NCBI GenBank assembly: GCA_022821065.1
Contig: JAJEEK010000090.1
Location: 83,704 to 147,703, forward strand
Origin: Candidatus Poribacteria bacterium
Lineage (GTDB): Bacteria; Poribacteria; WGA-4E; WGA-3G
DNA: 64,000 bases
Direction of reading: 5' to 3'
Shown here one piece after another: positions 2,759-63,350 of this stretch. The translations under genes and the position numbers were made by a program. The first letter of the stretch is position 1, and every line of letters begins with the position of its first letter. The notes beneath the pieces are model-generated. The model saw nothing but the letters and a program-made list of their open reading frames with translations. It had not been told where the DNA came from and made no database searches.

Positions 2759-2908
2759 TACCGGGCCTGGGTGTCCAAAATTGGGGAAAAAACTGAGAAC
2801 TAAATCGGCCTGGCACCTCCGAAAACTTCTGTGGTAGAGAAAACGAAAAAATGATATAATAATTTAGGTTAGTTTGAACGGTTTAAAAAAAAATAAGGAG
2901 AAGAGATA

Positions 2909-5527
2909 ATGCGATACTTATTGATTTTTGGGGTCTGTTTAATCTTAATAAGTGGTTATTGCCTCTCAGTATCAGCACAGGAGGCGGCGCAACCCACGAA
3001 ACCTGAAGCACAAGCATCGGCAAAGAAAAAAGAGTTTGAAGATTTTTCAAAAGTAACCGAGGATAGTAAAAGTTATCAAGGTTTTTTTCGGCTTTACGAG
3101 AAGAAAGAGAACCTCTATTGTGAGATACAACCGTCCCAATTAGACAAACCTTTTCTCTGCATGATGAGCCTTTCACGGGGGTTGGGAAGAGGGTATCTTA
3201 TTTCTGGTATGACGCTGAATGAATGGCTGCTCGTCTGGAAGCGCGTTGGTGACCGTGTGCACCTCGTCCGAAAAAATGTGCGTTTCCGTGCTGATAAAGG
3301 GACACCGACCGGACAAGCGGTGGACTATAGTTACAGCGACTCAGTGTTATTTTCTCTTAAGATTGAAAGTATACATCCACAACGGCGGAGTTTATTGGTG
3401 AACGTTGCTCCGGTCTTTATGTCTGACTTGCCGCCTTTAGCGGGTAGTATCGGTGGTGGTGCTCGGTTCGACAAAACACGTAGCACTTGGGGAACAATCA
3501 AGGGTTTCCCGAAGAATGTTGAGTTGCGAGTTAAGGCGGTGTACGCCGCGAGCGGCTCTATGACGACTGTCCCGGACAGTCGCGGTATCCAATTGACACT
3601 GCACTACAGTCTTTCCGAGCTCCCATCGAACAACTATCAACCGCGACTCGCTGATGACCGGCTCGGACACTTCATGACCGTTGTCAAAGATTATTCGCTC
3701 CAAACGAGTGATGCGCCATACATCCGGTATGTCAACCGTTGGCATTTGGAGAAGGCGGATAAAAAGGCGGAGCTCTCGCCGCCGAAGGATCCGATTATCT
3801 TCTATATTGAGAAGACGGTGCCGCACCGTTTCCGTCCGTATATTCGTCAAGGGATCTTAGAGTGGAATAAGGCGTTTGAGAAGGCAGGTTTTGTCGATGC
3901 GATTGAGGCGCGGATTCAGCAAGATTATGAGGACTGGGACCCCGAAGATGCGCGGTATAACACGATCCGTTGGGTCGTTGACGCGGGCTTCGCGATTGGT
4001 CCGTCGCGTGTGAATCCGTTGACGGGTCAGATATTGGATGCGGATATTCTTATCAGTGACGGTTTCATTCGGTCGTGGCAGCGAGAGTACACGACCTATT
4101 TCGAGGAACTCGACCACGAACACGATCACCCGATAGATGATTCCTCACGGTTTCAGTGTCAGATGGCATCTGGATTGGCGCGTCAGATGGGATTCATGGC
4201 GAGCGTGCTGCAGGCGCGTGGGGTGGTCGGTGAAGACGGTGAGTTGCCGGAAGCGTTTATCGGTCAGGCACTGAAATCGCTGACGATGCACGAGGTCGGT
4301 CATACGTTGGGATTACGGCACAACTTTAAAGCGAGTACGATCCATTCGCTTGATGACTTGAACAAGAAAAGCGATGAGGCGCTGCTCGGATCCGTCATGG
4401 AATACGACGCTGTGAACATCGCACCTGAAGGCAAAAAGCAGGGTGACTATTATACAACGACGATTGGACCGTGGGATTATTGGGTGGTCGAATACGCTTA
4501 CAAGTCGATCGGTGGGAGCAGCCCTGAAGCGGAATTGCCGGAGTTACAGAAAATCGCTGCCCGCGTCGCAACGCCGGGATTGACGTACGGTACGGACGGT
4601 GATGCGTCGGCGTATCAGAGCAGGGATTTAGATCCGCTGGTCAATCGGTGGGATCTGGGTTCGGATCCGCTTGATTTTGCGAAACAGCGTCGCGAGATTG
4701 TCGTTGAGCTCTGGGATAAGATCGCTGACAAGGTGACGAAAGAGGGGATGGGGTATCAGCGTGTCAGGCGTGCCTTCGGCTCGCTGCTGGGTGAACACGG
4801 CTATTCGATGTACCTTGCAAGCCGTTATATCGGTGGACAGTACCACCACCGGGATCACCGTGGTGATGAGAATGGACGGCTGCCGTTTGTGCCTGTCCCG
4901 GCGGCGAAACAGCGTGAAGCGTTGGATTTTATCAAAGAGCACGCGCTCTCAGACAAAGTGTTCGATTTCCCGCCGGATCTGCTCAACAGTCTCGCGATTA
5001 CGCGTTGGAGCGACTGGGGATCAAGTAGCGGGAGTTCTACACGTCTCGATTACCCGGTGCATAATGTTATTCTGAGTAATCAGAACCGTATTTTGGGACG
5101 CTTGCTCCATCCGAACGTCCTCTCGCGTGTTCAGGATACAGAGTTGAAGTTTCCAGAAGGTGAGGATGCGTTCACACTGCCGGAACTTTTCTCAGGTATT
5201 ACGGATGCGGTTTGGACGGAACTGGATCGGAATGTCGGAGAGAAACAGTGGTCGAATACGGATGCGTTCATCTCCAGTTTCCGGCGTGCGTTGCAACGTG
5301 AGCACCTGAAGCGGCTCATTAAGTTGGTATTAGACGCGGATAGCGGAACACCTGAAGACGCGAGGTCGCTGGCACGCCACCATCTTGGACAGATCAACAG
5401 TGGGATACAGGGTGTGCTTCAGAATGCACAAGGTAGGCTTGATGATTACAGTTTGGCGCACCTTGAAGAGTCACAGGTCCGGGTTACGAAGGCGTTGGAT
5501 GCGAGTTTCCAAGTCCAGAAACGATGA
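2909..5527 (+). CDS. Secreted zinc-dependent metalloprotease (DUF5117/DUF5118-type)
   Basis: 872 aa; signal peptide; LTMHEVGHTLGLRHNFKAS (HEXXHxxGxxH), SVMEYD Met-turn. Confidence 0.9.
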   Translation: MRYLLIFGVCLILISGYCLSVSAQEAAQPTKPEAQASAKKKEFEDFSKVTEDSKSYQGFFRLYEKKENLYCEIQPSQLDKPFLCMMSLSRGLGRGYLISGMTLNEWLLVWKRVGDRVHLVRKNVRFRADKGTPTGQAVDYSYSDSVLFSLKIESIHPQRRSLLVNVAPVFMSDLPPLAGSIGGGARFDKTRSTWGTIKGFPKNVELRVKAVYAASGSMTTVPDSRGIQLTLHYSLSELPSNNYQPRLADDRLGHFMTVVKDYSLQTSDAPYIRYVNRWHLEKADKKAELSPPKDPIIFYIEKTVPHRFRPYIRQGILEWNKAFEKAGFVDAIEARIQQDYEDWDPEDARYNTIRWVVDAGFAIGPSRVNPLTGQILDADILISDGFIRSWQREYTTYFEELDHEHDHPIDDSSRFQCQMASGLARQMGFMASVLQARGVVGEDGELPEAFIGQALKSLTMHEVGHTLGLRHNFKASTIHSLDDLNKKSDEALLGSVMEYDAVNIAPEGKKQGDYYTTTIGPWDYWVVEYAYKSIGGSSPEAELPELQKIAARVATPGLTYGTDGDASAYQSRDLDPLVNRWDLGSDPLDFAKQRREIVVELWDKIADKVTKEGMGYQRVRRAFGSLLGEHGYSMYLASRYIGGQYHHRDHRGDENGRLPFVPVPAAKQREALDFIKEHALSDKVFDFPPDLLNSLAITRWSDWGSSSGSSTRLDYPVHNVILSNQNRILGRLLHPNVLSRVQDTELKFPEGEDAFTLPELFSGITDAVWTELDRNVGEKQWSNTDAFISSFRRALQREHLKRLIKLVLDADSGTPEDARSLARHHLGQINSGIQGVLQNAQGRLDDYSLAHLEESQVRVTKALDASFQVQKR

Positions 5528-47964: not shown

Positions 47965-50900
47965 TCAATTGTTTTCTGTTTGAAGCGATGCCTGAAACAT
48001 CCCGCTCCGTTCGGTAGCGATATAAAGTTTATCGCCATTGATGGCAATGGAGACGACCCGGTTTGGCAGCCCTGGCAAGATTTGCTCCCATTTGCCGCGG
48101 GCATCCAATTGATAGACCCCAGTAGTGCTGGCACCATAAGTCGTCGTGTCAATTACAGTGATTCGATCTATAATAGTGCGTGTCCCTGTTCTATCAGTTA
48201 TCATACGCCAGTTTTCACCGTCCATTGATGTTAAGACACCTGCGTCTGTAGCGACATGGATCGTTGAACCGGCAAAAACGATTTCGTTGAAATGTTCAAA
48301 TCGAAGCGGCAGCGTTGCAGTCAGGTCTTTCCATGTGTTCCCAGCATCAAGCGATCGAAAGAGGTGCCCATCGCGTTTTCCAACGTAGACGGTTTCGCCT
48401 GAAACAGCGAGAATCAAATGGTCGGGCCCCTCATCGTTAGCAGGCGCGTTGATGTCCACGAGTCCAGTGTCGAACCATTCAGGTTCGCCGCGTCTCCACC
48501 GCAGGAGCCGTCCCTGATACGCCACATAGAATGTCTCGCCGCTGACTGCAAACGCCCGAGGCACCGATATATTCTGGCGAGTTGACTCTGTCAATTCACC
48601 TGTTTTCTTGTGATTGTTATCGGCGTTATCGGCTCTATTTTCTTCGGACCCCTCCTGCAATTCCGTTTTTTGCATTTCTATAGAACGATTTTCGCTAAAA
48701 GTCGGGGTCCCTTGAACAAGGACCAGATCAGTGTCACTCGCGGAGAGATAGAAAATGCAGGCGGTATCTTTGACACCTGAGACTGATGTGATGCCGTAAA
48801 GGATACCGTCAGAAACCGTTAGTTTTGGTACGAGCAGTAAACCGCCAGCATTCATCAATTGTTTTTTCCACGTTGATGTCAATTCATTAGGATCGAAATG
48901 CAAGGTTTGCCACGACATTCCGCCGTCTGTGGATTTGGCGATGCGCGTGCCGGTATTGCCGTAGAGGGCATTTTTGAAAGCTATGAGGTTAGATATTCTG
49001 GTGGCTATCATTCCTGTCATAAAGGGCTGCCACGATTCGCCCGTATCAGTTGAACGGTTAATCCCAAAAATTCCCGCCGTGAGTACAGTATTTTCGTCCA
49101 CACCGACAGCAGGGAACATACTCAATAAAAATGAATTCATCATTGCAACTGAGCTCGGCTTCTGATCACCCCCTGACCATGTTTTTCCACCATCCACGGA
49201 TCGGAGATGGAAACCGATGTATCCGATTGCTAAAAGTGTTCTTCCAGCAGTGAGGATTTTTACACCGGGTGACATCCTTATAAACGGTGATTCGGTTTGA
49301 GGTGTTATATCTGTCCACGAATCGCCCAAGTCGGCTGAGTGGAAAATTTCCCACATATCATATTGTTTCTTATCTACTGCTTCTTGTATAGATGCCTTCG
49401 CTTGGGAAGAATTTAAAACATCGGGTCCTGTCCCGACATAAAGGTTATTTTTTAAAACTGCCAAAGAATGGATGGCTCGGGTGGTATTCAGTGGCAATTT
49501 TTCTAAACCGTGTCTTGGCTTGATACGGTAGAGCCCCTGATTTGTGGCTACGAACACGGTATTTTTGATGCCGGTTATTGCATAGCTGATTATCTCTGTT
49601 CCTTCCTCATTCAGTGGGGTCCATTGTGTGCCTATATCTTCAGATCGAAAAACGCCTTCATCTTTGAGTGCAAGGTAGAATGCTTCATCGGTTACTGCCA
49701 GTCCGATAGCGACTCCTTTTGGGCGTGCGCCAAGCGATGTCCATGTCTCTCCTTTATCGGTTGAACTAAACACTTCATCAACAGAGACAAGATAGAGCGT
49801 GTTATTTTTCTCTGTCATCGGTATCATGTTGCCGCCGCTGGCAGCGGTTGGAAAGTTAATGGCTGATGCGGGACTGGTGAAGGCCCATGCAGAGGCATTG
49901 GGTGTCAATTTATAGATACCGAGGTGCGAAGCGGCGTAAGTATCGCCTTCTGAACTTACGAATAAACCCAATACTGGACCGAAACCCGGTGCATTTGCTT
50001 GTTTCCACTGCTGCTTGAGTGTCGGAGGCACTTCCTTGTCTACCTGCAGGGTGGGAACCGGTACAACCGGTTTTGCAATTTGCACACCGGTTCCGCTGTT
50101 TTTACCTGTGACATCGAGATGTCCGGCTTGGTTTCGCAGATCTGGTTCCGCTTGTGTATCAATGACAACGGGTGCGTCAATGATTTCAACAGTGGTTTCG
50201 GATTGGGCGTTCAAGTTGTAAGGTTTTTGGAAACGGAGGAGGTGTTGCGCCCCGACCCCGAGCATTAGCATTATGAAGATGGCAGCTGCGCCGAAAGCTG
50301 CCCATGGTAGGATCGGCTTTCCAACTTGAGGGGTTGCTGGTTTTATGTCGGCGACTTGTTGCATAATGCGCTCAATGAAATTGGTAGGCATCTGGACGGT
50401 TCCAAGCGTTTCGCGAATCAGGTGTTCTTCGGCTTGTAAACGCTCTCGTGCGCGTCGCAGCCGACTTTTAATCGTGTTCACCGAGACCCCCAGGAAGTTG
50501 CCAATTTCTTTCGTTGTCATTTCACCGAGGTAGTGAAGTGTCACCACCGTGCGTTCACTTTCCGGCAATGTTTCGAGAAGTTCTTTGACAATTTCGTGGC
50601 GATGTTCCATGGCTTCCGTCTCCCGTTGCTCTGATACATAACGTTTATAAGAAGAGCCCTCTACCTCCGCTACAGATGTGTTTTCCAGGGATTGCATCGC
50701 AGGTTTGTTGCTTTGATGCCACCGTTTGCAAAGGTTGCTTGCAATAACATAAAGCCATCCAGCAAACTGGTTGGGATTCCGTAGCGTAGCGAGGTTTTTG
50801 TAGGCTTGGATGAAGGCATCTTGGGCGATTTCTTCAGCGATGTGAAAATCGCCGATCTTCCGCCATGCGAGTGCGTGAACGCTCTTTTGGTACTTTTGAA

Positions 50901-50970
50901 CTAAAGTCGTGAACGCGGCTTCATCGCCTGATAAGATTCTGTGGATTAATTGAACATCATTTTCTACCAT
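47965..50970 (-). CDS. ECF sigma factor - TM helix - Asp-box/BNR beta-propeller fusion (copy 1)
   Basis: Start refined to MVENDVQLIHRILSGDEAAFTTLVQKYQKSVHALAWRKIGDFHIAEEIAQDAFIQAYKNLATLRNPNQFAGWLYVIASNLCKRW; region 4 LHYLGEMTTKEIGNFLGVSVNTIKSRLRRARERL; TM ILPWAAFGAAAIFIMLMLGVG; Asp boxes SSTDKGETW, HSADLGDSW, RSVDGGKTW, RSTDTGESW, KSTDGGMSW, RSLDAGNTW. Confidence 0.92.
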   Translation of the reverse strand: MVENDVQLIHRILSGDEAAFTTLVQKYQKSVHALAWRKIGDFHIAEEIAQDAFIQAYKNLATLRNPNQFAGWLYVIASNLCKRWHQSNKPAMQSLENTSVAEVEGSSYKRYVSEQRETEAMEHRHEIVKELLETLPESERTVVTLHYLGEMTTKEIGNFLGVSVNTIKSRLRRARERLQAEEHLIRETLGTVQMPTNFIERIMQQVADIKPATPQVGKPILPWAAFGAAAIFIMLMLGVGAQHLLRFQKPYNLNAQSETTVEIIDAPVVIDTQAEPDLRNQAGHLDVTGKNSGTGVQIAKPVVPVPTLQVDKEVPPTLKQQWKQANAPGFGPVLGLFVSSEGDTYAASHLGIYKLTPNASAWAFTSPASAINFPTAASGGNMIPMTEKNNTLYLVSVDEVFSSTDKGETWTSLGARPKGVAIGLAVTDEAFYLALKDEGVFRSEDIGTQWTPLNEEGTEIISYAITGIKNTVFVATNQGLYRIKPRHGLEKLPLNTTRAIHSLAVLKNNLYVGTGPDVLNSSQAKASIQEAVDKKQYDMWEIFHSADLGDSWTDITPQTESPFIRMSPGVKILTAGRTLLAIGYIGFHLRSVDGGKTWSGGDQKPSSVAMMNSFLLSMFPAVGVDENTVLTAGIFGINRSTDTGESWQPFMTGMIATRISNLIAFKNALYGNTGTRIAKSTDGGMSWQTLHFDPNELTSTWKKQLMNAGGLLLVPKLTVSDGILYGITSVSGVKDTACIFYLSASDTDLVLVQGTPTFSENRSIEMQKTELQEGSEENRADNADNNHKKTGELTESTRQNISVPRAFAVSGETFYVAYQGRLLRWRRGEPEWFDTGLVDINAPANDEGPDHLILAVSGETVYVGKRDGHLFRSLDAGNTWKDLTATLPLRFEHFNEIVFAGSTIHVATDAGVLTSMDGENWRMITDRTGTRTIIDRITVIDTTTYGASTTGVYQLDARGKWEQILPGLPNRVVSIAINGDKLYIATERSGMFQASLQTENN

Positions 50971-51130
50971 CAGAACTCCCTGTGATTCGCGCGAGTTGCC
51001 ATCTTTTGGGTTGTAATAGTTGTTGTGGTATAGACTGTTAATCTGTGCTTCTGCGTCTGCAAACGAACAATTGAAAGCACAAAACGGAGACTTGATAGTT
51101 AATCTTGTCTGTGGCAACTTGGGTGATTTA

Positions 51131-51190
51131 ATAATTAATGATACAATTTTGAGGGGAAAAGGGTGCATAAGAAAAAAAAAATCTGACACC
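51131..51190 (-). promoter_or_regulatory. Candidate promoter/operator shared with 63351..63420
   Basis: Minus strand GGTGTCAG...TTATGCACCCTTTTCCCCTCAAAATTGTATCATTAATTAT. Confidence 0.5.
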
Positions 51191-51219: not shown

Positions 51220-52074
51220 TTAGTGCATTGCTTGTTTTAGTTGTCCCCATGTCGCTGTTAGTTTGCCTTGGGGTTGGCCCGACAAATTGCCGTGATTTGG
51301 TACATCTTTACCTGTAATCTTGAGATTGTCGAATCGAGCGGTATAGCCTGTGAGACCGAAACCGACACTGCCAACAGTGAGATCCTCCTTAAACGGAAAG
51401 TTTTGGAACAGACAGGTGAAAGATAGAACATTCTCTCCATTAACCGAGAGTGTAAACTGTTCTTGATCCACGCGTAGTTTCATACGATTCCACTCCCTTG
51501 TTTTGAGAAAAGGGTGCGGGAAAACCGTTGTGCAATTCATAATTGCTCCCGCTTTCAAAATCTCTTCTTGGATTTCTTCGCCCGCGGGTCCGTTGAACAC
51601 TTCGTTTAATTTGTCACGCTCTATATTAGCAAATTTATCTATTCTGGCAAAGAAAAGCGGCAGTCCCGCGATCTGTCCTGTAGACAAATTGAAAACGACA
51701 CCTGAGACTGTCGGTGATGGTGCGTTCCAGAAGATATTCCCGATTGCGAAAACAACGGCGTGTGTTTCATTGACTCTGGCGGCAAGCACGATGTGTCCGC
51801 GTCCGTGTCTGACGAGCGGCATTACATCAATTTCTACTTCATAATCGTGCCATGCTGCATTTTTTATGACCAGCATTCGGATGGCGTTATCCTTGCTTTC
51901 TGCGTGAAGTTCGCCATTAACGAGTTTCCACTCAACAACAGGGAGATTTCGCTCAGTAACTTCTTCCCAATCCTGGAAGTTAAAGTTATCGAATGTCTCC
52001 AGAAATGTTCCAGCAAAGCTGGATAACGTCTGGATAAGGGTGAGACTTACAATCATCAAAATCGCAAACTTCAT
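51220..52074 (-). CDS. Secreted DUF1080/LamG-like protein with WGxLK tail
   Basis: 284 aa; signal peptide; GTFLETFDNFNFQDWEEV...; ends GKLTATWGQLKQAMH. Confidence 0.8.
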   Translation of the reverse strand: MKFAILMIVSLTLIQTLSSFAGTFLETFDNFNFQDWEEVTERNLPVVEWKLVNGELHAESKDNAIRMLVIKNAAWHDYEVEIDVMPLVRHGRGHIVLAARVNETHAVVFAIGNIFWNAPSPTVSGVVFNLSTGQIAGLPLFFARIDKFANIERDKLNEVFNGPAGEEIQEEILKAGAIMNCTTVFPHPFLKTREWNRMKLRVDQEQFTLSVNGENVLSFTCLFQNFPFKEDLTVGSVGFGLTGYTARFDNLKITGKDVPNHGNLSGQPQGKLTATWGQLKQAMH

Positions 52075-52146
52075 GGTATGCTCCTTAGAAGGGTAAAATA
52101 TAAAAGGGACGTAGAAGTTGTAATAGATTTCTTCGATAAGAGAAGA

Positions 52147-53178
52147 CTACTTGGTTGTACTTTCTGGTTGTTTGAGTTTGCCCCAAAGCGTCATCTGTTT
52201 TTCCGCGCTCGGCGATACAGAGAGAAAACTGTCTGGGACCCATTGAATATCGCTCCCGACTAATTTTCTCGTCGTTTCAAGCGGTTTGTCGCTGCCAATG
52301 TCTGCTGTATTGACAACACTGATGACGGAGTTAGCAAAAATGCCTTCTGCGGGAATCCATATTCCAGGACGAATTTCTGGTAGTTGAACCAGAACATAGG
52401 CGACGCATTTTCCGCTCGGAGACCATATCGCGTCGGAGATTGTTACGAGTCCTTTATACAAGCGGGTGAGTTGACGCATATTTTTCCCATCTACATCAAT
52501 ACTGAAGAGAGCAGTGCCTCCTACAGCATCTCCGGGTGGGACAAAAGCGATCTCTTTCCCATTGGGTGCCCATGTGCATACACGGGTAAACGTATCTGTG
52601 AGCCGTCTCAACCCTCTGCCTTCAGCACTCATGACATAAATAAAGGATCCTATTTCTGCATCTTTTCTTTTTCCGCTAAAGGCAATTGATTGACTGTCAG
52701 GAGACCAAGCGGGTCTTTTGCAGCCCCCTCGGTTCGTCAGTCGCATTACATTTCCGCCATTCGCGTCCATTCTGTAGATGTCCATTTCTCCGTTCCGTTC
52801 CGAGATGAATGCAATCCACTTTCCATTCGGAGACCACGCGGGCGAAATATCTCTGCTATCTTCCAAAAAAGTCAAGCGATGGTGTGTGTTCGTTCTCACA
52901 TCCATTACATAAATATCGGGGGATCCGTTTCGGTTCGAGCTGTAGACAATCGAAAGTCCGTCAGGTGACCAGCTGAAGTTGCCCATAGATTCGGGACCTA
53001 CCGTCAGTTTTTGAAGTGGTTCACCTTGGGTATTTATAAGATGGATGGAGTGCTCTCCGTTCGTTCTGGGCAGAAAAGAAATGATCTCAGTCTCTGCTGC
53101 CCACCCATCGCTGATGAATAGGCTAATACTTGGCAATAACACTATTGCTAATATCAAATAAATTCGTATGCGTTTCAT
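52147..53178 (-). CDS. Secreted TolB-like beta-propeller with WGxLK tail
   Basis: Repeats SPDGLSIVYSSNRNGSPDIYVMD, SPNGKWIAFISERNGEMDIYRMD; ends SVSPSAEKQMTLWGKLKQPESTTK; start refined to 53178. Confidence 0.85.
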   Translation of the reverse strand: MKRIRIYLILAIVLLPSISLFISDGWAAETEIISFLPRTNGEHSIHLINTQGEPLQKLTVGPESMGNFSWSPDGLSIVYSSNRNGSPDIYVMDVRTNTHHRLTFLEDSRDISPAWSPNGKWIAFISERNGEMDIYRMDANGGNVMRLTNRGGCKRPAWSPDSQSIAFSGKRKDAEIGSFIYVMSAEGRGLRRLTDTFTRVCTWAPNGKEIAFVPPGDAVGGTALFSIDVDGKNMRQLTRLYKGLVTISDAIWSPSGKCVAYVLVQLPEIRPGIWIPAEGIFANSVISVVNTADIGSDKPLETTRKLVGSDIQWVPDSFLSVSPSAEKQMTLWGKLKQPESTTK

Positions 53179-53239
53179 ATTTATCATGTCTTTCTTTTTA
53201 AGGCATGGTTCTGTTTGGTACTGAAGGTTCTGCATAGGT

Positions 53240-54115
53240 TCAAAATGATTCTGACTTGACTTGTCCCCAGGTTGTGGTTATGGAAGTATTTCTCGGATTG
53301 ACAGCAAGCGCACCACTGGTAGTCGCCCCATTCATGCCAATTAGCGTATATCCATTCCCCGATTTATCTTTAAAGCGAGTTTTTCCTGATCGCTCGTCAA
53401 AGTCCCAAAGTGCTAACGTGTGCGCATCGTTAGGGAGACGATGCGGTGGATCAAATGGCTCAATTCCGCGTTCGGCAGGTAAGTCGTACCGGGCGATATT
53501 TGAAAACCTTATCACATCAATTTCGCCATGGAAGTAGGTATATATGTGTTGCAGTCGGTTTCCGCCAAACACTTCTACCTCTTCTTGATATCCACCGATG
53601 AAGAAATCTTTACGTTTTCTCCTAACCTCCGCAGCCACTTGATTCATTCTGTCAAACTTTTTTGATCGGAGTATCCAATTGTTGTGTACGAAATGAAATG
53701 TGCTGTCTCTGTAAATGATTGCCACATAGTTCCACTGGTTTCTTTCCACTTCAACATCGGTTCCTGTGACGCCGTGAGCTGTTGCTCCTTGAAGGTGTGC
53801 TGCACCCCAGCAACAGAATTGATTCTTACCAAGTTCACAATGTCCACTTGGGGTCAATCCGAAGCTAACTTGCTGTTGAAGAATTATCTCTCGTTCTTTG
53901 CGTTTCGGTCCAGTCTTTGGGTAAAACCACATTTCGACAGTGAACTCATGGGTATGTTTGGGGAAAATATAGCCATGTTCGGCAAGTGGGAGAATTGCAT
54001 AGTCATCCTCACCATCAAGCATCAAGACACCACCGGAAGGCTCGAAAGAAAAGACAGGCAGAACGAAACTCAGCAATAACACCGCACTGAGTAGTAATTT
54101 AAAGTTAATAAACAT
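53240..54115 (-). CDS. Secreted LamG-domain protein with WGxVK tail
   Basis: 291 aa; HEFTVEMWFYPKTGPK...HGEIDVIRFSNIARYD...HTLALWDFDERSG; ends TTTWGQVKSESF. Confidence 0.85.
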   Translation of the reverse strand: MFINFKLLLSAVLLLSFVLPVFSFEPSGGVLMLDGEDDYAILPLAEHGYIFPKHTHEFTVEMWFYPKTGPKRKEREIILQQQVSFGLTPSGHCELGKNQFCCWGAAHLQGATAHGVTGTDVEVERNQWNYVAIIYRDSTFHFVHNNWILRSKKFDRMNQVAAEVRRKRKDFFIGGYQEEVEVFGGNRLQHIYTYFHGEIDVIRFSNIARYDLPAERGIEPFDPPHRLPNDAHTLALWDFDERSGKTRFKDKSGNGYTLIGMNGATTSGALAVNPRNTSITTTWGQVKSESF

Positions 54116-54209
54116 TGAGGGACCTCTTTTCCCCTTATCAGGGGAGGGTGACTCTAAGACGGGGTGCGTAAATCGTATAAATTAACATATTCCTTCTGTA
54201 ATATCGTTG

Positions 54210-55325
54210 CTACTTGGTAGCCTTTTCTGGTTGTTTGAGTTTGCCCCAGAGTGTCGTCTGCTTCTCTGCACTTGGCGAAACTGAGAGGAACCCTTCTGGT
54301 ACCCACGCGGGATATAAGTTCAACGATAAACCTCTTTTCTCCATCAGAAGCGGTTTTCCGCGTCCGTTGTTAATCGCGTTTATGACATAGATATCAGAAC
54401 TTCCAGGCTCTAACACACTGTAGGCAATCCGGTCTCCATCAGGGGACCACGCTGGGTAAGAAATCAGGGGATTTGGAAAACCTATCACTGCTACCGGTTC
54501 TAATCCAGGTCCACCTTGAGTGAGTTGGTGAAAGTTTTTTCCGTCTGTGTCAATCACACAAAGGTGTGTTCGCTTCTGCTTAGGGATATCCATACCAAAA
54601 GCGATTTGTTTTCCATCGGGGCTCCAGGAACATTCACCTCGAAATATACCATTGAGTGCCTGTACCGCTTTATCATTAATTCGTCTTAACCTTCTTCCAT
54701 CGGCATCCATCATATAGATACCTTTCCGTTCATTGCCTCGATGGCGGGAGATGAACGCAATCCATTGACTGTCTGGAGACCAAGCAGGTCTCCCGTTTGT
54801 TCCCTGATTCGTTAACTGTCTCAGGTTTTCCCCGTTAGCCTCGGTTTTATAGATGTCAGAGCGATGTGCGTGTCCAAGTCCTTTGTTTTCGGGTTTTTCG
54901 TGGTCAATAGAGAGGAACGCGATTGATTGCCCATCAGGTGACCAAGCCGGAAACCATTCTTCTTCGTGACGGTTTGTTAGCCGCCGGTGTTCTCTTGTTC
55001 TTGTGTCCATTACATAGATCCTATAAGTGCCGTCTTGGTTGGAGGCGTAGGCAAGAAGCTGCCCATCTGGTGACCACGCCGGAGATCGTTCATCGGCGGG
55101 ATGGTTCGTGAGGCTGCGGAGGTTTTCGCCATCGGTGTTTATGACATAGATATCAAAGTTGCCCGTCCGCTTAGAGGCAAAGGAGATCCGCTTACTTCCA
55201 GCAGCATCTGCCGAGTTACCTATGAACGGTAGAGTGCCATTTAGAAATAGGACTGCCGCTAATATTGGACCTACAAGCCTACTTTTCGTAAAAAAGAGAG
55301 GGGTCTCAATCCTTGTCCATCTCAT
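54210..55325 (-). CDS. Secreted TolB-like beta-propeller with WGxLK tail
   Basis: 371 aa; SPDGQLLAYASNQDGTYRIYVMDTRT...; ends SVSPSAEKQTTLWGKLKQPEKATK. Confidence 0.85.
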   Translation of the reverse strand: MRWTRIETPLFFTKSRLVGPILAAVLFLNGTLPFIGNSADAAGSKRISFASKRTGNFDIYVINTDGENLRSLTNHPADERSPAWSPDGQLLAYASNQDGTYRIYVMDTRTREHRRLTNRHEEEWFPAWSPDGQSIAFLSIDHEKPENKGLGHAHRSDIYKTEANGENLRQLTNQGTNGRPAWSPDSQWIAFISRHRGNERKGIYMMDADGRRLRRINDKAVQALNGIFRGECSWSPDGKQIAFGMDIPKQKRTHLCVIDTDGKNFHQLTQGGPGLEPVAVIGFPNPLISYPAWSPDGDRIAYSVLEPGSSDIYVINAINNGRGKPLLMEKRGLSLNLYPAWVPEGFLSVSPSAEKQTTLWGKLKQPEKATK

Positions 55326-55379
55326 TATTTTTTTCTTTCCAAGATATGGTCCGTTTGGGACCGAAGGCTCTGCCTAAGT

Positions 55380-56270
55380 TCAAAACGATTCTGACTTCAC
55401 TTGTCCCCAGGTTGTCGCTAAAGAGTTATCGGGACGAATTTCAAGGCTTCCAACATCTCCGCCATCGACGACAGTGGCACCATTCATGCCGATGAGCGTC
55501 TTCCCATTGCCAGACGCATCTTCAAAGCGGTCTGCGCCTTCCTTGTCATTGAAATCCCAGAGTGCTAACGTGTGTTCATCATTCAAAAAACGAGGGGGTG
55601 GATCAAACGGATTGTGCCCCTGTTCAGCGCAGTCATACCGAGCGATATTTGAAAACCTGATCGCATTAATTTCGCCATGAAAACCACTCACTTGGAATAA
55701 CAAGCCCCCGTTAGGTGCCACAAACTTATCCTCACCATATCCGCCTACGACGAAATCCTGAACGCCTTCAGGTCTATTGATATGCAAAGATATCCTGTCC
55801 ACAAGAGGAAGTCTCCAGCCTTGACTAATTCGGTCATTGGTCGCATGACAAAGCGTGCTGTTCTTGAAAATGATTGCTATATAGTTCCATTGATCCTTCT
55901 CAATTGCACTATCAGATCCTACAAGTCCGTGAGCTGTGTTGCCTGAAAGATATGCATGACGATAACTGCAAAGTTGATTCTGTCCGAGTATACACTTTTC
56001 TCTGGCCAGCAATCCGATGGAAACTTGCTGAGTCAGAATAAGGTCTTTATCTTTCTCCTTCGGTTCAGTTTTCGGATAGAACCATACTTCAACAGTAAAC
56101 GCATGGGTGTTTCTGGGGAAAATATGCCCATGTTCCTTAAAAGGGAGTATTGCATAGTCATCCTCACCATCTAATGACAAAACTCCACCAAAAGGCTCCA
56201 AAGAAAAGACAGGCATAACTAAACTGAACAATAACACCGTACTTAATAGTAATTTAAAGTTGGTAAACAT
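55380..56270 (-). CDS. Secreted LamG-domain protein with WGxVK tail
   Basis: HAFTVEVWFYPKTEPKEKDKDLIL...HGEINAIRFSNIARYD; ends LATTWGQVKSESF; start refined to 56270. Confidence 0.85.
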   Translation of the reverse strand: MFTNFKLLLSTVLLFSLVMPVFSLEPFGGVLSLDGEDDYAILPFKEHGHIFPRNTHAFTVEVWFYPKTEPKEKDKDLILTQQVSIGLLAREKCILGQNQLCSYRHAYLSGNTAHGLVGSDSAIEKDQWNYIAIIFKNSTLCHATNDRISQGWRLPLVDRISLHINRPEGVQDFVVGGYGEDKFVAPNGGLLFQVSGFHGEINAIRFSNIARYDCAEQGHNPFDPPPRFLNDEHTLALWDFNDKEGADRFEDASGNGKTLIGMNGATVVDGGDVGSLEIRPDNSLATTWGQVKSESF

Positions 56271-56317
56271 CAGAATCTCCTTATTTATAACGCAAGTTGC
56301 CCCCCATTTATCCATTT

Positions 56318-56394
56318 ATAGACATAGCACTCCTACGGAGTGCGGTCGCTTAGATATACCACTTCTATAGACATATCATCCCTACGGGATGAGG
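56318..56394. repeat. Two adjacent short palindromes of the TATAGACATA family
   Basis: TATAGACATAGCACTCC-TAC-GGAGTGC ... CTATAGACATATCATCCC-TAC-GGGATG; the first resembles 15954..15986. Confidence 0.65.
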
Positions 56395-56554
56395 AAAAAT
56401 CCTTGAAAAATGCTGTGGAAATCCGCAGAAACCTCCAAGCAAAAACACCTCCCTTATCAAGGGGAATTGGGTCATTTGTAGATGTCAATATATTTTTATA
56501 ATTTACCATAGATGCAAAAAGCAGTTATTTTCGTCCTCGAAATCCTCTATTCCT

Positions 56555-57529
56555 TCAGTCACCGGCAGACTGCTTGAGTTTACCCCACAAGGTCGACTGC
56601 TTCTCCGTACTCGGTGAAACGGAGAGGAACCCCTCCGGTACCCATTCGGGATGCTCATTTTTCCCGGGATGCTTTGTGATTTGGCGAAGTTTGCCGCCAT
56701 CAACAGCGACGAGGTAAATATTTGCATCTACATTCGGGTTGCCCCAAGGATTGTCAATCTCTGCATCGTAGGCAATCCAAGCCCCATCTGGGGACCATGC
56801 CGGATTGTGGCTCCAAATATTATTCGGTGTCACGCGCCGCGTATTTTGACCTTGGGCACCCATGATGTAGATACCACTTCCCATAATACCTGCATAATAG
56901 GCAATTTGCTTTCCATCTGGTGACCAAGTCGGAGATGTCCCTCTATCTTGTGGCTGCATCACGCGTCTGATACGTTTCCCATCAAGATTCATCACATAGA
57001 TGCCACCGTTGTCATTTGGTCTGGAATAGAAAGCGATCTGTTCTCCATCTGGTGACCATGAAGGAACAAAATTGTATTTTCCATCGTCGGTGAGTTGTTG
57101 TAGATTCTCACCGTTGATATCTATTTTGTAGATGTCATAAGTCTGTTTTTGGGGGATACGAGATGAAAAAGCGATCCACTTTCCATCAGGCGACCACGCT
57201 GGATTGGTATCTGATTCTGGACGGTACGTTAATCGTCGCGGTTCTGTCCGATTGAGGCTCATGATATAGATTTCAGCATTTCCATCTCGGTTAGAGACAA
57301 AAGCAAAGGCGCGCCCGTGCGGTGCCCACGTTGCCTGGGAGTCCCATGAAGGATGATTCGTTAAGTTACGTAGATTTTCTCCATTTATATCCATGATATA
57401 GATGTCATAGTTTCCTATTCGGTTGGAACTGAAGGAGATATACGGAGCTGCCCAAGTGTTTACGGTTTGTAGAAGTAGAATAAACAGTAGTGTTGTGCCG
57501 AGGCCTTTGTAGGTATGTTTCATTTTCAT
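56555..57529 (-). CDS. Secreted TolB-like beta-propeller with WGxLK tail
   Basis: 324 aa; FSSNRIGNYDIYIMDINGENLRNLTNHP...; ends SVSPSTEKQSTLWGKLKQSAGD. Confidence 0.87.
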   Translation of the reverse strand: MKMKHTYKGLGTTLLFILLLQTVNTWAAPYISFSSNRIGNYDIYIMDINGENLRNLTNHPSWDSQATWAPHGRAFAFVSNRDGNAEIYIMSLNRTEPRRLTYRPESDTNPAWSPDGKWIAFSSRIPQKQTYDIYKIDINGENLQQLTDDGKYNFVPSWSPDGEQIAFYSRPNDNGGIYVMNLDGKRIRRVMQPQDRGTSPTWSPDGKQIAYYAGIMGSGIYIMGAQGQNTRRVTPNNIWSHNPAWSPDGAWIAYDAEIDNPWGNPNVDANIYLVAVDGGKLRQITKHPGKNEHPEWVPEGFLSVSPSTEKQSTLWGKLKQSAGD

Positions 57530-57558
57530 TTTTTGATTTTCCTATAAATTCGCTGGGT

Positions 57559-58299
57559 CTAAGGTCTTTTCAAGTTTCCCCAAGTTGTCGCGAGTTTTGC
57601 TTTGGGTGTTACAGGGAAATCACCGCTGTTTGGAATGGTATCGCCGGTGACAGTGATGTTGTCGAAGATTGCCGTATAGTTCCAGAGCCCGAAACCGACA
57701 CCTCCGCTCTGAAAGTCTGGAAAATCAGCAAAGACATCAATCTGCCTGAAGACTTGAAGTTTCGTCGGTGCCATAACCTGCTCATCATCAATCCAGAAGG
57801 TAAAGATATCGCCTTCAGCACTTAGTTTCAGATGGTGCCATCTGTTTAATTTTAAAAGTGGGTGCGGTTCCACGATAAGGGTGGCAAGTGCTGGACGGTT
57901 CAAACTGGTAGCAGAACAACTTATTCGTTCCTCTTGAAACGGTGGGTCGTCACCCCTTATAATCACGGGATCAAAAATACGACAGGAAACTAACCAAGTT
58001 CCGTCAACCCGCGCAGCGATTGCGATTCCGCCAATCCCGTGTTTTTTTAGCGGCTTGACATCGAGTTCCATGGTGTAGTTTTCCCATGTGTTATCGCCAG
58101 TTGTCAGCAAGTGCGTATACGCCTCACGACTGTCTGCGTGCAGTTCACCATCAACAATATCCCAGACAGTGGGGGCCTTATCGCTCCAAATTTGCTGCCA
58201 TCTGTCCAACTCTTTGCCATCAAAAGTTTCGAGAAATGTGCCTGCTGAAACAGATAAAGAGAATAGAAATAGGGTTGTTACAATAATTAGAAATTTCAT
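57559..58299 (-). CDS. Secreted DUF1080/LamG-like protein with WGxLK tail
   Basis: 246 aa; GTFLETFDGKELDRWQQIW...; ends FPVTPKAKLATTWGNLKRP. Confidence 0.82.
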   Translation of the reverse strand: MKFLIIVTTLFLFSLSVSAGTFLETFDGKELDRWQQIWSDKAPTVWDIVDGELHADSREAYTHLLTTGDNTWENYTMELDVKPLKKHGIGGIAIAARVDGTWLVSCRIFDPVIIRGDDPPFQEERISCSATSLNRPALATLIVEPHPLLKLNRWHHLKLSAEGDIFTFWIDDEQVMAPTKLQVFRQIDVFADFPDFQSGGVGFGLWNYTAIFDNITVTGDTIPNSGDFPVTPKAKLATTWGNLKRP

Positions 58300-58317
58300 T
58301 AGTATTTATCGCCTCCG

Positions 58318-61251
58318 CTATTTACGAGAAAGGTCGTTTTTGGCTTTTTCAAGTGGAATCTGAAACATCCCATGGTGTTCGGTGACAATATAGAGTTTGT
58401 CGTTTTTAACGGTGAGAGAGAGGACTTTATCTGGCACATTTGGTAAGACTTGTTCCGGTTGTCTATTGTTGCCTAAGCGATAGATACCGGTATCACCAGC
58501 CATATAAACTGTTGTGCCATTGACGATAAGTCTATTGGCAATGATATACTCGCCTGCGGTGTCTGTGAGTACGCGCCAGTATGTGCCGGTTTTTGAAGTT
58601 AAAATGCCTCTGTCGGTTGCGACGTAAGCGGTTGAACCGACAAAAAGGATCTCTTTGAACCGGTTAAAACGGAGAGGTAGGCTGGGTGTAATATCGCGCC
58701 AACTGTCACCACCATCAAGCGACTGAAAGAGACTACCATCTCGCTTGCCGACATAGACGGTTTCGGCTGAGACCGCCAATTTGAACCCATTTTTTGAACC
58801 GTCATTCGTGTGCGGACCGGTATCTATGAGTCCAGTATTTTTCCATTCTGGATATCCGCGTTTCCACTTGAAGAGTTTCCGTTTGTATTCGACATAGAAC
58901 ATCCCATCGCTGACTGCAAACGCGCCGACTTTCCTGTGATCTTCCATGAGACGCACTTCATATAGCGATTCCCGATCGCTTTTCTGATTGCCCGAGAGGT
59001 AAACACCTTGTGCTTCTGCGATCTCTTTCAACACAGCCGTAGAGAGATCCTTCGTACCAAAAATGGGGAGCCCTTGAACTGGAGCAAAAGTATTATCACC
59101 CGCTGATAGATAGGAGATACGTAGGTTGTCAGGTTCAGAGACAATTGTATAGAGAAGGTTGCCGACAGTGACGAATTTTGAATTACTGTTCAGAACGCCT
59201 TTGTTAATTTGATTTATGTATTCTAAGTTAGATACGCGTTTAGGTGCCTCCATCGGAACGGTTTTCCAAGATTTGCCGTTGTCCGATGATTGAACGATAT
59301 CGTTGTCGGTTTGTACGTAGAGTGTATCATTGAAAGCGACGACATCTTGTACGCCGGTTCCGACCATGCCTTCCATAAAATGATGCCACGATTCACCAGC
59401 GTCGGTTGTGCGGTAGAGTCCATAGATTCCTGTTTTGTAGAGGGTGTTTTCATCGGCTGCTAAATAGGCATAGGTATTTGGGACAGGTCCAAGATTTGTC
59501 CAAGTCATTCCGCCATCCACTGAATGAAATAGTCTGGCGCCGCGTGCTAAGATCGTTTCGTTTTTAACCGCTATTGCCATAGCGACTGTTGCCATGAAAA
59601 GACCGTGTTTGGGTTTAGGTGTGATCTCAGTCCAGGACATTCCGAGATCGTTTGATTTGAAAATTCTGCCTCTCCTTGAGGGCTCAATTCGCATGTACTG
59701 CTCAACTTTGCGCCCTGTTCCGACGTAGAGGTTATCTTCAAAGGCGACCAAGTCGTGTACAACTCTGGTTGTATCGAGTGGCAGCAGTTCCCAAACGTCG
59801 TTTTTGAGTCGGTAGAGTCCGCTGTCTGTGCCGGTGAATATTGTCTCATCAACCGCAGCGAGATTATAAACCTTTTTACCTCTCAATCCGTTGTTCACGG
59901 GTGTCCAGTGTTTTCCGACATCTGTAGATCGGAAGATCCCGTTATCCGAAAGTGCGAGATACATTGTAACAGTTTTGTGTGCTGCAGTGTCTATGACGAT
60001 GAGTTCAACCGGATCCCCCGTAGGTCGGGTCCCTAATGTGTTCCATGTCTCGCCATCATCGGTTGAAGCCAATAGTTGATCAGTAGTGACGATATAGAGG
60101 GTGTCCGCATGCTCTGCTATAGGCACTCGGAAGGTGCCGTTCGGGATATTGATATCTACAGGTATCCACAGCGTTGTTCCAGCTGTTAGTCTGTAGACCC
60201 CGATTGACGCATTAGCGTAGAGTGTCTTTTTAGATGTCTCAAAGATATCAAACACGAAACCGCCTGGGGGTCCGTTCATCTGTGTCCAGTGTGAAGTCGA
60301 GAATGTGGCGGGGAAATCCACCGTTGTTGCGGATGCGGTGGTTATATCAGCGGCACGTAAGCCGGTCCCGATACTTTTATTCGGGATCGTCGCGTGTCCG
60401 ACCTGATTTCGAATGGTCGGTTTGGCGAGAATATTGAGCGTGATGGGTGCGTCAACGATTTCAACTGTCGGCTCGGATTGTGCTTCAAAGTTGTATGGTT
60501 GCTGGAATCGGAGAAGGTATCGGTTGCTTAGACCGAGGAATAGCACCAAGAGAAGGGCAGTCACGCCGACAGCGGTCCAAGGGAGTAAGGGTTTCGTAGT
60601 TGGGGCGGAGGCAGGTTTGAAATCGGCGATTTGCCGTGCGATGTTCTCGGTGAAGTCAGCGGGGAATTGGATGCTCCCGAGTATTTCGCGAACCCAGGGT
60701 TCTTTGTTCTGTGCCCGTAAACGTTCTTTTGCGCGTTGGAGTCGGCTCTTGATTGTGTTTGCGGATACGCCTAAGAAGTTGCCGATTTCTTTGGCAGTCA
60801 TCTCACCGAGGTAGTGGAGTGTTATGACTGTGCGTTCACTTTCGGGTAGTTTTTTCAGAAGTTCTTTAACGATTTCGTAGCGGCGTTCGGTGGCTTTCGT
60901 CTCTTGTTGCTCCGACAGATAATTTTTATAGGACGCTTCGTCCACTGCTGTCCGGGATGTTTTTTCCAGCGATAGCATTGTCGATTTTTTCTTTTTGAAC
61001 CGTTTAATGCAGAGCCGGTTGGTAATTACATATAACCAGCCTGCAAACTGGCTGGGGTTGCGTAGGGTCGCGAGTTTTTTGTGGACTTGTAGGAAGGTAT
61101 CTTGTGTAATCTCTTCAGCGATGTGAAAATCGCCGATCTTCCGCCATGCGAGTGCGTGAACGCTCTTTTGGTACTTTCGGACTAAAGTCGTGAACGCCGC
61201 TTCATCGCCTGATAAGATTCTATGGATTAATTGAACATCATTTTCTACCAT
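58318..61251 (-). CDS. ECF sigma factor - TM helix - Asp-box/BNR beta-propeller fusion (copy 2)
   Basis: 977 aa; MVENDVQLIHRILSGDEAAFTTLVRKYQKSVHALAWRKIGDFHIAEEITQDTF; NFLGVSANTIKSRLQRAKERL; TM LLPWTAVGVTALLLVLFLGLS; ASTDDGETW, RSTDVGKHW, KSNDLGMSW, HSVDGGMTW, QSSDNGKSW, QSLDGGDSW. Confidence 0.93.
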   Translation of the reverse strand: MVENDVQLIHRILSGDEAAFTTLVRKYQKSVHALAWRKIGDFHIAEEITQDTFLQVHKKLATLRNPSQFAGWLYVITNRLCIKRFKKKKSTMLSLEKTSRTAVDEASYKNYLSEQQETKATERRYEIVKELLKKLPESERTVITLHYLGEMTAKEIGNFLGVSANTIKSRLQRAKERLRAQNKEPWVREILGSIQFPADFTENIARQIADFKPASAPTTKPLLPWTAVGVTALLLVLFLGLSNRYLLRFQQPYNFEAQSEPTVEIVDAPITLNILAKPTIRNQVGHATIPNKSIGTGLRAADITTASATTVDFPATFSTSHWTQMNGPPGGFVFDIFETSKKTLYANASIGVYRLTAGTTLWIPVDINIPNGTFRVPIAEHADTLYIVTTDQLLASTDDGETWNTLGTRPTGDPVELIVIDTAAHKTVTMYLALSDNGIFRSTDVGKHWTPVNNGLRGKKVYNLAAVDETIFTGTDSGLYRLKNDVWELLPLDTTRVVHDLVAFEDNLYVGTGRKVEQYMRIEPSRRGRIFKSNDLGMSWTEITPKPKHGLFMATVAMAIAVKNETILARGARLFHSVDGGMTWTNLGPVPNTYAYLAADENTLYKTGIYGLYRTTDAGESWHHFMEGMVGTGVQDVVAFNDTLYVQTDNDIVQSSDNGKSWKTVPMEAPKRVSNLEYINQINKGVLNSNSKFVTVGNLLYTIVSEPDNLRISYLSAGDNTFAPVQGLPIFGTKDLSTAVLKEIAEAQGVYLSGNQKSDRESLYEVRLMEDHRKVGAFAVSDGMFYVEYKRKLFKWKRGYPEWKNTGLIDTGPHTNDGSKNGFKLAVSAETVYVGKRDGSLFQSLDGGDSWRDITPSLPLRFNRFKEILFVGSTAYVATDRGILTSKTGTYWRVLTDTAGEYIIANRLIVNGTTVYMAGDTGIYRLGNNRQPEQVLPNVPDKVLSLTVKNDKLYIVTEHHGMFQIPLEKAKNDLSRK

Positions 61252-62278
61252 CTGGATCCTCCTTTTTCATTTCGCCCCATGTCGTCGTTAGCAACTCAGG
61301 TTTTGGTGAAACGGGTAGCGCAAACGCTGGGTCAAACCAATCGCCACCAGTATTCGTTCGACGGAAAGGTCCAGCAATATGTGTCAACTGCGTTTGAACG
61401 CCGGTATTTATATGAATCTTGAAGATTTGGGAATGTCCGTTAATCTCTTGTGTATAGAGCACTTCCTCTCCATCCGGCGATAACACAGGATGCTGTGCAT
61501 AGGGACCGTCTTCCTTGACCAGTTGACGCAAACCGGTTCCGTCTCGGTTGACGATGAAGATTGTCTGGTTGTCCCTCCATGCGTTGTGCAGGTCGCGATC
61601 CAAGATGACCGGCAACAGATGTTTGATCCCAGAAAAAGCGAGTCTATCCCCCGAAGCAGACCAGGATGGCTGGAATTGCCATCGGAGTGCTTTCGTAGGT
61701 AGCGGTTGTTCCACCTCGCGTGTGCGGACGCTGATGAATGTCAGCCGAGATGTCTGTGGGTGAGGGCTTATATGACAAGCGATTTCGGAACCGTCCGGGG
61801 ACCACGCGGGGGAAGCGCAGTGCGGTAGGAGTTCGGCATCTTCTTCACCAAACGTTCCAAGATAGAGCTCGGTCTTCGGGCGCGTCCGGTCTGAGGTCAC
61901 ATAAGCGAAGTGTTTTCCATCAGGGGACCACGTCGCGTTTCCGCGCCACGCCGTTATTTTTTTCTTGAAGACGCGCCGGACATTTGTGCCATCGGGGTTC
62001 ATGAGATACAGGTCTCGCATTCGCGTGCCTTGTCGGTCTGAGACGAAGAGGATCTGATCCCCTGTCGGTGACCAGACAGCCCCCAGATCCCCCGCGGGAT
62101 GTTGTGTGAGGTTGACCTGTTCGGAGCCATCTGGATTCATCATATAAACCTCACGATTGCCGTCCCGACTGGAGGTAAACAGGATTTTGGGTGTTGTCGG
62201 AGCTTTTGCAAAGAGCGGAGATATTGTTCCATATATCAGCGTTAAGAGGATGATAAAAAAAATTGCCTTCAATTTCAT
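61238..62278 (-). CDS. Secreted TolB-like beta-propeller with WGxMK tail
   Basis: MKLKAIFFIILLTLIYGTISPLFAKAPTTPKILFTSSRDGNREVYMMNPDGSEQVNLTQHP; ends TTTWGEMKKEDPDGRK; overlaps the sigma-propeller start by 14 bp. Confidence 0.87.
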   Translation of the reverse strand: MKLKAIFFIILLTLIYGTISPLFAKAPTTPKILFTSSRDGNREVYMMNPDGSEQVNLTQHPAGDLGAVWSPTGDQILFVSDRQGTRMRDLYLMNPDGTNVRRVFKKKITAWRGNATWSPDGKHFAYVTSDRTRPKTELYLGTFGEEDAELLPHCASPAWSPDGSEIACHISPHPQTSRLTFISVRTREVEQPLPTKALRWQFQPSWSASGDRLAFSGIKHLLPVILDRDLHNAWRDNQTIFIVNRDGTGLRQLVKEDGPYAQHPVLSPDGEEVLYTQEINGHSQIFKIHINTGVQTQLTHIAGPFRRTNTGGDWFDPAFALPVSPKPELLTTTWGEMKKEDPDGRK

Positions 62279-62298
62279 AGGTATTTCTCCTAAATTTA

Positions 62299-63321
62299 TT
62301 ACTTCTTTTTTTCTTTTCCCCATGTCGTTGTTAGCAAATCCGGTTGTGGCGATACGGGCAAGGCATACGCAGGGTCAAACCAATCGCCGCCAGAATTCGT
62401 TCGACGAAAAGGTCCAGCAATATGCGTCAACTGTGTCCGCACGCCGGTATTTATATGAATCTTGAAGATTTGGTAATGTCCATTAATCTCTTGTGTATAA
62501 AGCACCTCTGAACCGTCCGGCGATAACGCAGAAACACCAGCCATGGGACCGTCTTCCTCAACAAGTTGTTGGAGACCGGTGCCGTCGCGGTTGACGATGA
62601 AGACTGTGTCTTTATCCTTCCATGCGTTGTGCAGGTCGCGATCCAAGATGACTGGCAACGGATGTCTGTTCCCAGTAATCGCAAGCCTATTTCCGGTAGC
62701 AGACCAAGATGGACCGGATTGCCATTGGAGTGTTTTATCGGGTAGCGGTTGTTCGAGTTCTCGTGTGCGGACATCCATAAATGTGAGTCGAGATCCGAAT
62801 TGATGAGGTATAGAATAGGCGATTTCGGAACCGTTAGGGGACCATTCAGGTGAATTTCCATACGGTAGGAGTTCAGCATCTTCTTCGCCAAAAGTTCCAA
62901 GATAGAGACCGAACTCGAAACGATCCCAGTCTGTGTATTTGTAAGCAAACTGTTTGCCATCGGTAGACCATGCCGGACTATGCCTCCAACCCTTTGCTTT
63001 TTTCCTGAAGACGCGGCGGACGTTGGATCCATCGGGGTCCATGAGATATAGGTCTCGCACACGCGTGCCTTGTCGGTCCGAGACGAAGAGGATTTGCTCA
63101 CCCGTTGACGACCAGGCGGCACCAAAATCACTGGCGGGATGCTGCGTAAGGTTCACTTGTTCGGAGCCATCTGGATTCATCACGTAGACCTCCGAGTTGC
63201 CATCCCGTGAAGACGTGAACAGGATTTTGGCGGTTGTTGGAACTTTATTCGCAGAAAGCCAACACACATCTCCACACATCAGCGTTAAAAGTGTGATATA
63301 AAAAATCGCCTTCAATTTCAT
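62299..63321 (-). CDS. Secreted TolB-like beta-propeller, tandem paralogue of 61238..62278, variant tail
   Basis: MKLKAIFYITLLTLMCGDVCWLSANKVPTTAKILFTSSRDGNSEVYVMNPDGSEQVNLTQHP; ends LLTTTWGKEKKK. Confidence 0.87.
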   Translation of the reverse strand: MKLKAIFYITLLTLMCGDVCWLSANKVPTTAKILFTSSRDGNSEVYVMNPDGSEQVNLTQHPASDFGAAWSSTGEQILFVSDRQGTRVRDLYLMDPDGSNVRRVFRKKAKGWRHSPAWSTDGKQFAYKYTDWDRFEFGLYLGTFGEEDAELLPYGNSPEWSPNGSEIAYSIPHQFGSRLTFMDVRTRELEQPLPDKTLQWQSGPSWSATGNRLAITGNRHPLPVILDRDLHNAWKDKDTVFIVNRDGTGLQQLVEEDGPMAGVSALSPDGSEVLYTQEINGHYQIFKIHINTGVRTQLTHIAGPFRRTNSGGDWFDPAYALPVSPQPDLLTTTWGKEKKK

Positions 63322-63350
63322 ACGTATTTCTCCGATTGGCATTATTATCC

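Follow-up and report, generated by a model that had tools for sequence, protein, structure and literature searches.

A short C-terminal tag common to signal-peptide proteins of unrelated folds in Poribacteria, and its possible reading by a type IX-like surface pathway

The window analyzed here is a stretch of 64,000 nucleotides at the right end of a contig (C48; GenBank JAJEEK010000090.1) in the 5.14-Mb draft genome of a Candidatus Poribacteria bacterium. Poribacteria are abundant, uncultured sponge symbionts, and their surface proteins are likely to make contact with the host. Nine genes of the window encode proteins with different domains that finish in one short C-terminal tail, hereafter, the tag (Table 1). 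An initial annotation had drawn attention to this tail, and the nine open reading frames (ORFs) and their C-termini exist as it quoted them. The motif it gave, T-[TL]-W-G-x-[LVM]-K, describes an ending that is indeed common to all nine, although two tails deviate slightly: TATWGQLK (51220-52074) and TTTWGKEKKK (62299-63342), in which E stands for L, V or M. Among window ORFs of at least 60 amino acids, the lone further match is internal, 674 residues before the end of the ORF at 2897-5527, and is thus due to chance; the tail is absent from the other proteins of the window, as had been claimed.

Table 1. Tagged genes of the window with their C-terminal tags, and loci elsewhere that encode SprA-, PorU- or PorV-like proteins.
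Feature	Coordinates	Strand
Tagged protein, 284 aa, signal peptide, 3-keto-disaccharide hydrolase/DUF1080-like (PF06439)	51220..52074	-
C-terminal tag GQPQGKLTATWGQLKQAMH	51223..51279	-
Tagged protein, PD40/TolB-like beta-propeller (PF07676)	52147..53235	-
C-terminal tag SPSAEKQMTLWGKLKQPESTTK	52150..52215	-
Tagged protein, Laminin_G_3/LamG (PF13385)	53240..54115	-
C-terminal tag NPRNTSITTTWGQVKSESF	53243..53299	-
Tagged protein, PD40 beta-propeller	54210..55325	-
C-terminal tag SPSAEKQTTLWGKLKQPEKATK	54213..54278	-
Tagged protein, LamG (PF13385, slightly under cut-off)	55380..56315	-
C-terminal tag IRPDNSLATTWGQVKSESF	55383..55439	-
Tagged protein, PD40 beta-propeller; propeller confident in AlphaFold, tail 304-324	56555..57529	-
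C-terminal tag SPSTEKQSTLWGKLKQSAGD	56558..56617	-
Tagged protein, 3-keto-disaccharide hydrolase/DUF1080-like; fold confident in AlphaFold, tail 227-246	57559..58299	-
C-terminal tag VTPKAKLATTWGNLKRP	57562..57612	-
Tagged protein, PD40 beta-propeller	61238..62323	-
C-terminal tag SPKPELLTTTWGEMKKEDPDGRK	61241..61309	-
Tagged protein, PD40 beta-propeller	62299..63342	-
C-terminal tag SPQPDLLTTTWGKEKKK, E where L/I/V is usual	62302..62352	-
SprA/PorU/PorV-like loci	L227:5405-12022; L228:1-5760; L257:2586-7733; L259:3100-9660; L272; L273	

The tag extends far beyond these nine genes. In the 5.14-Mb genome, codons for TWGx[LIVMF]K give 69 matches and the reversed control gives 1; for the TLWG form of the motif the counts are 7 and 1. 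Of the 81 distinct ORF matches, 76 end 1 to 8 residues before the stop codon, so that the motif is not commoner internally than at C-termini. The suspected enrichment among secreted proteins is also borne out: with a crude scorer of our own making rather than SignalP, a signal peptide was found in 73 of the 75 tagged proteins with usable ORFs in this genome, the other two being truncated ORFs, and over the loci fetched in 209/227 tagged compared with 241/960 untagged ORFs (Fisher p ~1e-81).

We collected 310 tag-only proteins, part of them fetched with a TWG pattern. Their tails follow the consensus V-[ED]-[PA]-x-G-K-L-[AT]-T-T-W-[G/A/S]-x-[LIV]-K, about 15 residues long. The residue after the Trp is G in 87%, A in 12% and S in 1%; the hydrophobic position before the Lys is L in 54%, I in 23% and V in 18%; and the stop codon follows 1–10 residues past the Lys, with 2 or 3 residues in 79% of cases. 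Both Trp and Lys are present in 310/310 tails. The Trp was partly selected by the search patterns, but the tails with A or S, which lie outside the reach of the search pattern, all keep it too. Synonymous codons vary freely at the T, G and K of the tag, which indicates that selection acts on the protein and rules out a DNA-level element such as a repeat or an attachment site at gene ends. Between homologous pairs, the 15-residue tail retains ~65% identity, compared with 24–30% in the protein bodies.

The carriers of the tag are diverse, as the initial annotation had held. The tagged proteins fall into 27 homology clusters, and the domains recognized in the 75 from the window's genome include LamG (40), PD40 propeller (10), 3-keto-disaccharide hydrolase (5), CBM9 (2) and F5/8 (2); the cargo consists mostly of carbohydrate-binding-like folds. 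AlphaFold models, computed as monomers for two window proteins, predict the tail to be disordered and outside the folded domain, with predicted local distance difference test (pLDDT) values below 50 in residues 304–324 of 324 and 227–246 of 246. The tail is short, flexible and charged. A transmembrane (TM) segment (19-residue window, mean hydropathy >1.6) was found in none of the 310 tails, in agreement with the earlier observation, and a lipobox-like match, by a crude regular expression, in only 7/310 proteins; these counts rule out an exosortase-, LPXTG- or lipoprotein-type tag. In scans of the 9 and the 75 tagged proteins, none of the Pfam and NCBIfam models extends over the tail, consistent with the earlier remark that no named family matches. 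The lone match to TIGR04183, the type IX secretion system (T9SS) type A C-terminal domain (CTD), is weak (0.0054) and lies on propeller residues 161–229, off the tail. Literature searches on secretion, sorting and signals in Poribacteria yielded no earlier description. We consider the tail an undescribed C-terminal tag with a predicted function; the idea of a common terminal sorting, anchoring or docking signal on different folds is supported by the tests that can be made computationally.

Two features of the tag go beyond the initial annotation: it is present throughout the phylum, and it also occurs directly before T9SS-type CTDs. In a sample of 85 Poribacteria genomes, draft metagenome-assembled genomes (MAGs) with every family represented, tag matches were found in 85/85, at 4–119 per genome against 0–9 for the reversed controls. 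Two genomes of the same class (G050 and G054) have few matches (4 and 13) despite encoding SprA, C25 and PorV homologues, which may reflect divergence or loss of the tag. A scan of GTDB r220 with a stricter pattern returned at least 80 loci; among the matches listed, 79 of 80 belong to Candidatus (or uncultured) Poribacteria and one to a Planctomycetota MAG, NIOZ-UU13. This exception (L156) sits on a 4.4-kb contig and is probably a stray or misbinned Poribacterial contig, because the genome otherwise shows background counts only (4 against 2 in the control). To judge from this sample, the tag is nearly confined to the phylum.

The window's genome encodes 49 T9SS type-A-like CTDs, and in one of these proteins (L050) the tag is internal, with the CTD directly after it. 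A search for the combination, in which the pattern allowed about 10 linker lengths, gave 61 matches in 54 Poribacteria genomes and 0 in the reversed controls. The linker between the tag Lys and NYPNPFN measures 6 residues in 56 of the 58 proteins and 5 residues in the other 2; a large share of these proteins belong to one orthologue group, and in all they amount to about 11 distinct genes. Like the position and the conservation of the tag, this fixed spacing is read directly from the sequences. The families involved are unrelated (FG-GAP/ASPIC, glucose/sorbosone dehydrogenase [GSDH], subtilase, WD40 and BNR). Among ~45 orthologues of the L050 protein, which were found by protein similarity and not by the motif, all but 2 keep the Trp, and three have R for K; paralogues that lack the CTD also lack the tag. 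Among the pre-CTD tags, three gene cases show F or L at the Trp position, a replacement seen only before CTDs. One domain can bear either ending, since the protein of L304, which is tag-only, and that of L327, which has a CTD, share 65% identity over 204 residues.

Type-A CTDs were reported from Poribacteria by Kamke et al. 2014 (PMC3909097), who found no structural Por genes, and reviews restrict the T9SS to Bacteroidota (PMC10202324). Contrary to the 2014 statement, Poribacteria encode homologues of SprA, PorU and PorV, as judged from profile matches and alignments, and this reopens the question of T9SS outside Bacteroidota. A SprA homologue of ~2,200 residues is present in 84/85 genomes, mostly under the curated cut-off and over it in one. 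That one, the SprA of a more conserved member of the phylum (L228), aligns to the solved SprA at 8e-31; with phmmer, the window genome's own SprA gave no match to solved structures. Peptidase C25 proteins of ~1,700–2,200 residues likewise occur in 84/85 genomes, so that a candidate processing enzyme, whose co-occurrence the initial annotation had proposed to look for, does accompany the tag. Against the PorU sortase model, four tested proteins of this kind score 1e-102 to 5.6e-129, with that of L273 over the cut-off, and the PorU of the window's genome aligns to the solved PorU at 4e-31, with the histidine of GHGG and the cysteine of TC conserved. PorV-family barrels are found in 85/85 genomes, and in two of them (L272, L273) a PorV/UPF0164-like barrel follows porU. 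None of the SprA, C25/PorU and PorV families had matches in the genomes of the control set.

We interpret the tail, with somewhat less than even confidence, as a dedicated Poribacterial C-terminal sorting tag that is read by the phylum's T9SS/PorU-type surface pathway. Signal-peptide proteins of many folds would reach the periplasm through Sec, where their tail, flexible and of the form V-[ED]-P-x-G-K-L-T-T-W-[GAS]-x-[LIV]-K, would be recognized by the SprA translocon, PorV-like barrels and PorU-family C25 sortases, leading to surface display or attachment. The element W-[GAS]-x-[LIV]-K would be the boundary processed by the sortase, and most tagged proteins would bear this element without a folded CTD. 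This is the simplest mechanism because in some larger proteins the identical tag lies six residues before a type-A-like CTD, at about the position of the PorU cut in Bacteroidota. PorU cuts before G, A or S (PMC10202324, PMC4560394), and in P. gingivalis the cut falls ~10 residues ahead of where the CTD has its first strand (PMC4560394 Table 2, PMC10202324); in the tag+CTD proteins, the small residue after the tag Trp stands 11 residues upstream of the Tyr in NYPNPFN. We infer recognition by type IX-like machinery, export, cleavage and attachment from the position of the tag and the content of the genomes.

Several observations weigh against this interpretation. The known PorU P1 residues are T, E, D and N, not Trp, and because of this disagreement, and because the comparison of spacings is our own, we put forward cleavage between W and G in tag+CTD proteins as a hypothesis only. 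In Bacteroidota the CTD is both necessary and sufficient for T9SS export, and the tag-only proteins have none. Conversely, ~46 of the 49 CTD proteins in the window's genome lack the tag, and among the matches listed in the GTDB scan, none came from T9SS-bearing Bacteroidota. As to the T9SS motor, a search for GldM was silent and is uninformative because its control was silent too; PorK/L/N were not searched for. Finally, no conserved operon was found that links the tag to any machine. A tagged LamG gene directly adjoins sprA at L227, L232 and L245, and at L241 with the variant LTTVWASVKSER, but it does so only in the window's genus, and we therefore rejected this arrangement as a clue to a conserved partner.

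The main rival fits most of the facts nearly as well, and we regard it as possible, if less probable than reading by the type IX-like machinery. Here the tag would act in docking or retention independently of the T9SS: the Trp/Lys motif would stay on the mature protein and bind a Poribacteria-specific receptor in the periplasm, the outer membrane or the surface layer, on a principle like that of encapsulin cargo peptides or dockerins. Removal of a CTD would simply leave the tag before it as the C-terminus, so that mature tag+CTD proteins would finish just as tag-only proteins do. The conservation of the tag even where a CTD stands behind it, the short, flexible, charged and TM-free character of the tail and the prevalence of carbohydrate-binding-like cargo also agree with docking. 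Against docking, no receptor candidate was found, and the fixed spacing of 6 residues suggests that tag and CTD are read together.

Within the type IX-like reading, a narrower version is doubtful in our estimation: PorU-family sortases might recognize the tail by itself, with W-[GAS]-x-[LIV]-K cut or serving as acyl donor with neither a folded CTD nor a membrane anchor. If this is true, a diderm phylum would for the first time be seen to use a short sortase signal that needs no anchor, and ~70–120 surface proteins per genome would carry it.

It is unlikely that the tag is instead a stand-alone export signal that alone drives passage through SprA and is interchangeable with the CTD. The last 22 residues of one Bacteroidota CTD, that of HBP35, do suffice to export green fluorescent protein, and the C-terminal Lys matters for this (PMC10202324); the domain shared by L304 and L327 with either tail, and the loss of the Trp to F or L only before CTDs, point the same way. 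A redundant signal, however, should decay before a CTD, which is at odds with the near-constant Trp in the orthologues of the L050 protein, and no homology of the tag to the CTD was shown at the sequence level. Still less credible is a vestige, in which tag-only proteins are former CTD proteins left with a functionless linker: they do end within a few residues of the expected CTD start, but strong purifying selection over the 27 clusters, the invariant Trp and presence across the phylum make this very improbable. To the view that the tail is the last strand of one domain common to the nine window proteins, or that it reflects simple paralogy within a single family, we give almost no credence, since despite the dominance of LamG-type proteins (40/75) and the existence of paralogous arrays, the folds are unrelated (LamG, PD40 propeller, CBM9, F5/8 and DUF1080-like), and the low-confidence tail lies outside both modelled folds, which rules out the last strand for these two.

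The tagged cluster of the window is flanked by two genes, at 47965-51189 and 58318-61251 and both on the minus strand, whose products join an extracytoplasmic function (ECF) sigma factor with a propeller of BNR/sortilin type, apparently via a membrane segment. Arrays of tagged genes also follow the homologues at L132:1713-4694 and L145:1283-4210, and at L272:12696-15731 a fusion of sigma factor and WD40 adjoins porU-porV. Their place beside tagged arrays and porU-porV suggests that the sigma-propeller fusions are a conserved regulator of tagged surface proteins.

Carried by ~70–120 proteins per genome, the tag would allow a surface or envelope proteome to be delimited by sequence data only. 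It offers a concrete address for the puzzle left by Kamke et al. 2014 (PMC3909097), CTDs in the absence of Por genes, and if PorU-type sortases do read it, it would show that such a system can work with very little of a CTD. The SprA, PorU and PorV homologues of Poribacteria deserve a separate report.

Among known systems, encapsulin cargo-loading peptides and dockerins resemble the tag as short or modular C-terminal docking elements on varied cargo; encapsulin cargo is cytosolic, whereas tagged proteins have signal peptides, and the tail contains no dockerin repeat. PEP-CTERM/exosortase, IPTL-CTERM and GlyGly-CTERM share with the tag a short common C-terminal signal on many unrelated exported proteins per genome; PEP-CTERM differs in its TM helix and the terminal basic cluster that follows. 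LPXTG and sortase A signals provide a parallel in that a short conserved motif including a conserved Gly lies close to the C-terminus, and in sortase-type processing, for which the tag is a candidate. The tag, unlike LPXTG signals, has no LPXTG motif, hydrophobic anchor or charged tail, its host is diderm, and the candidate enzyme belongs to the C25 (PorU) family; no search for sortase (PF04203) genes was made. The T9SS type A CTD (TIGR04183/PF18962) is an Ig-like domain of ~70–100 residues, in contrast to the ~15 residues of the tag, which are predicted to be unfolded, have no match to the CTD model and mostly occur with no CTD present. Together with PorU, it nevertheless offers several likenesses: a C-terminal element borne by signal-peptide proteins that differ in fold, the presence of SprA, PorU and PorV homologues in the phylum, the tag directly before such CTDs in ~11 genes, and, at the PorU cut site and in the tag alike, a small residue (G, A or S) at one position.

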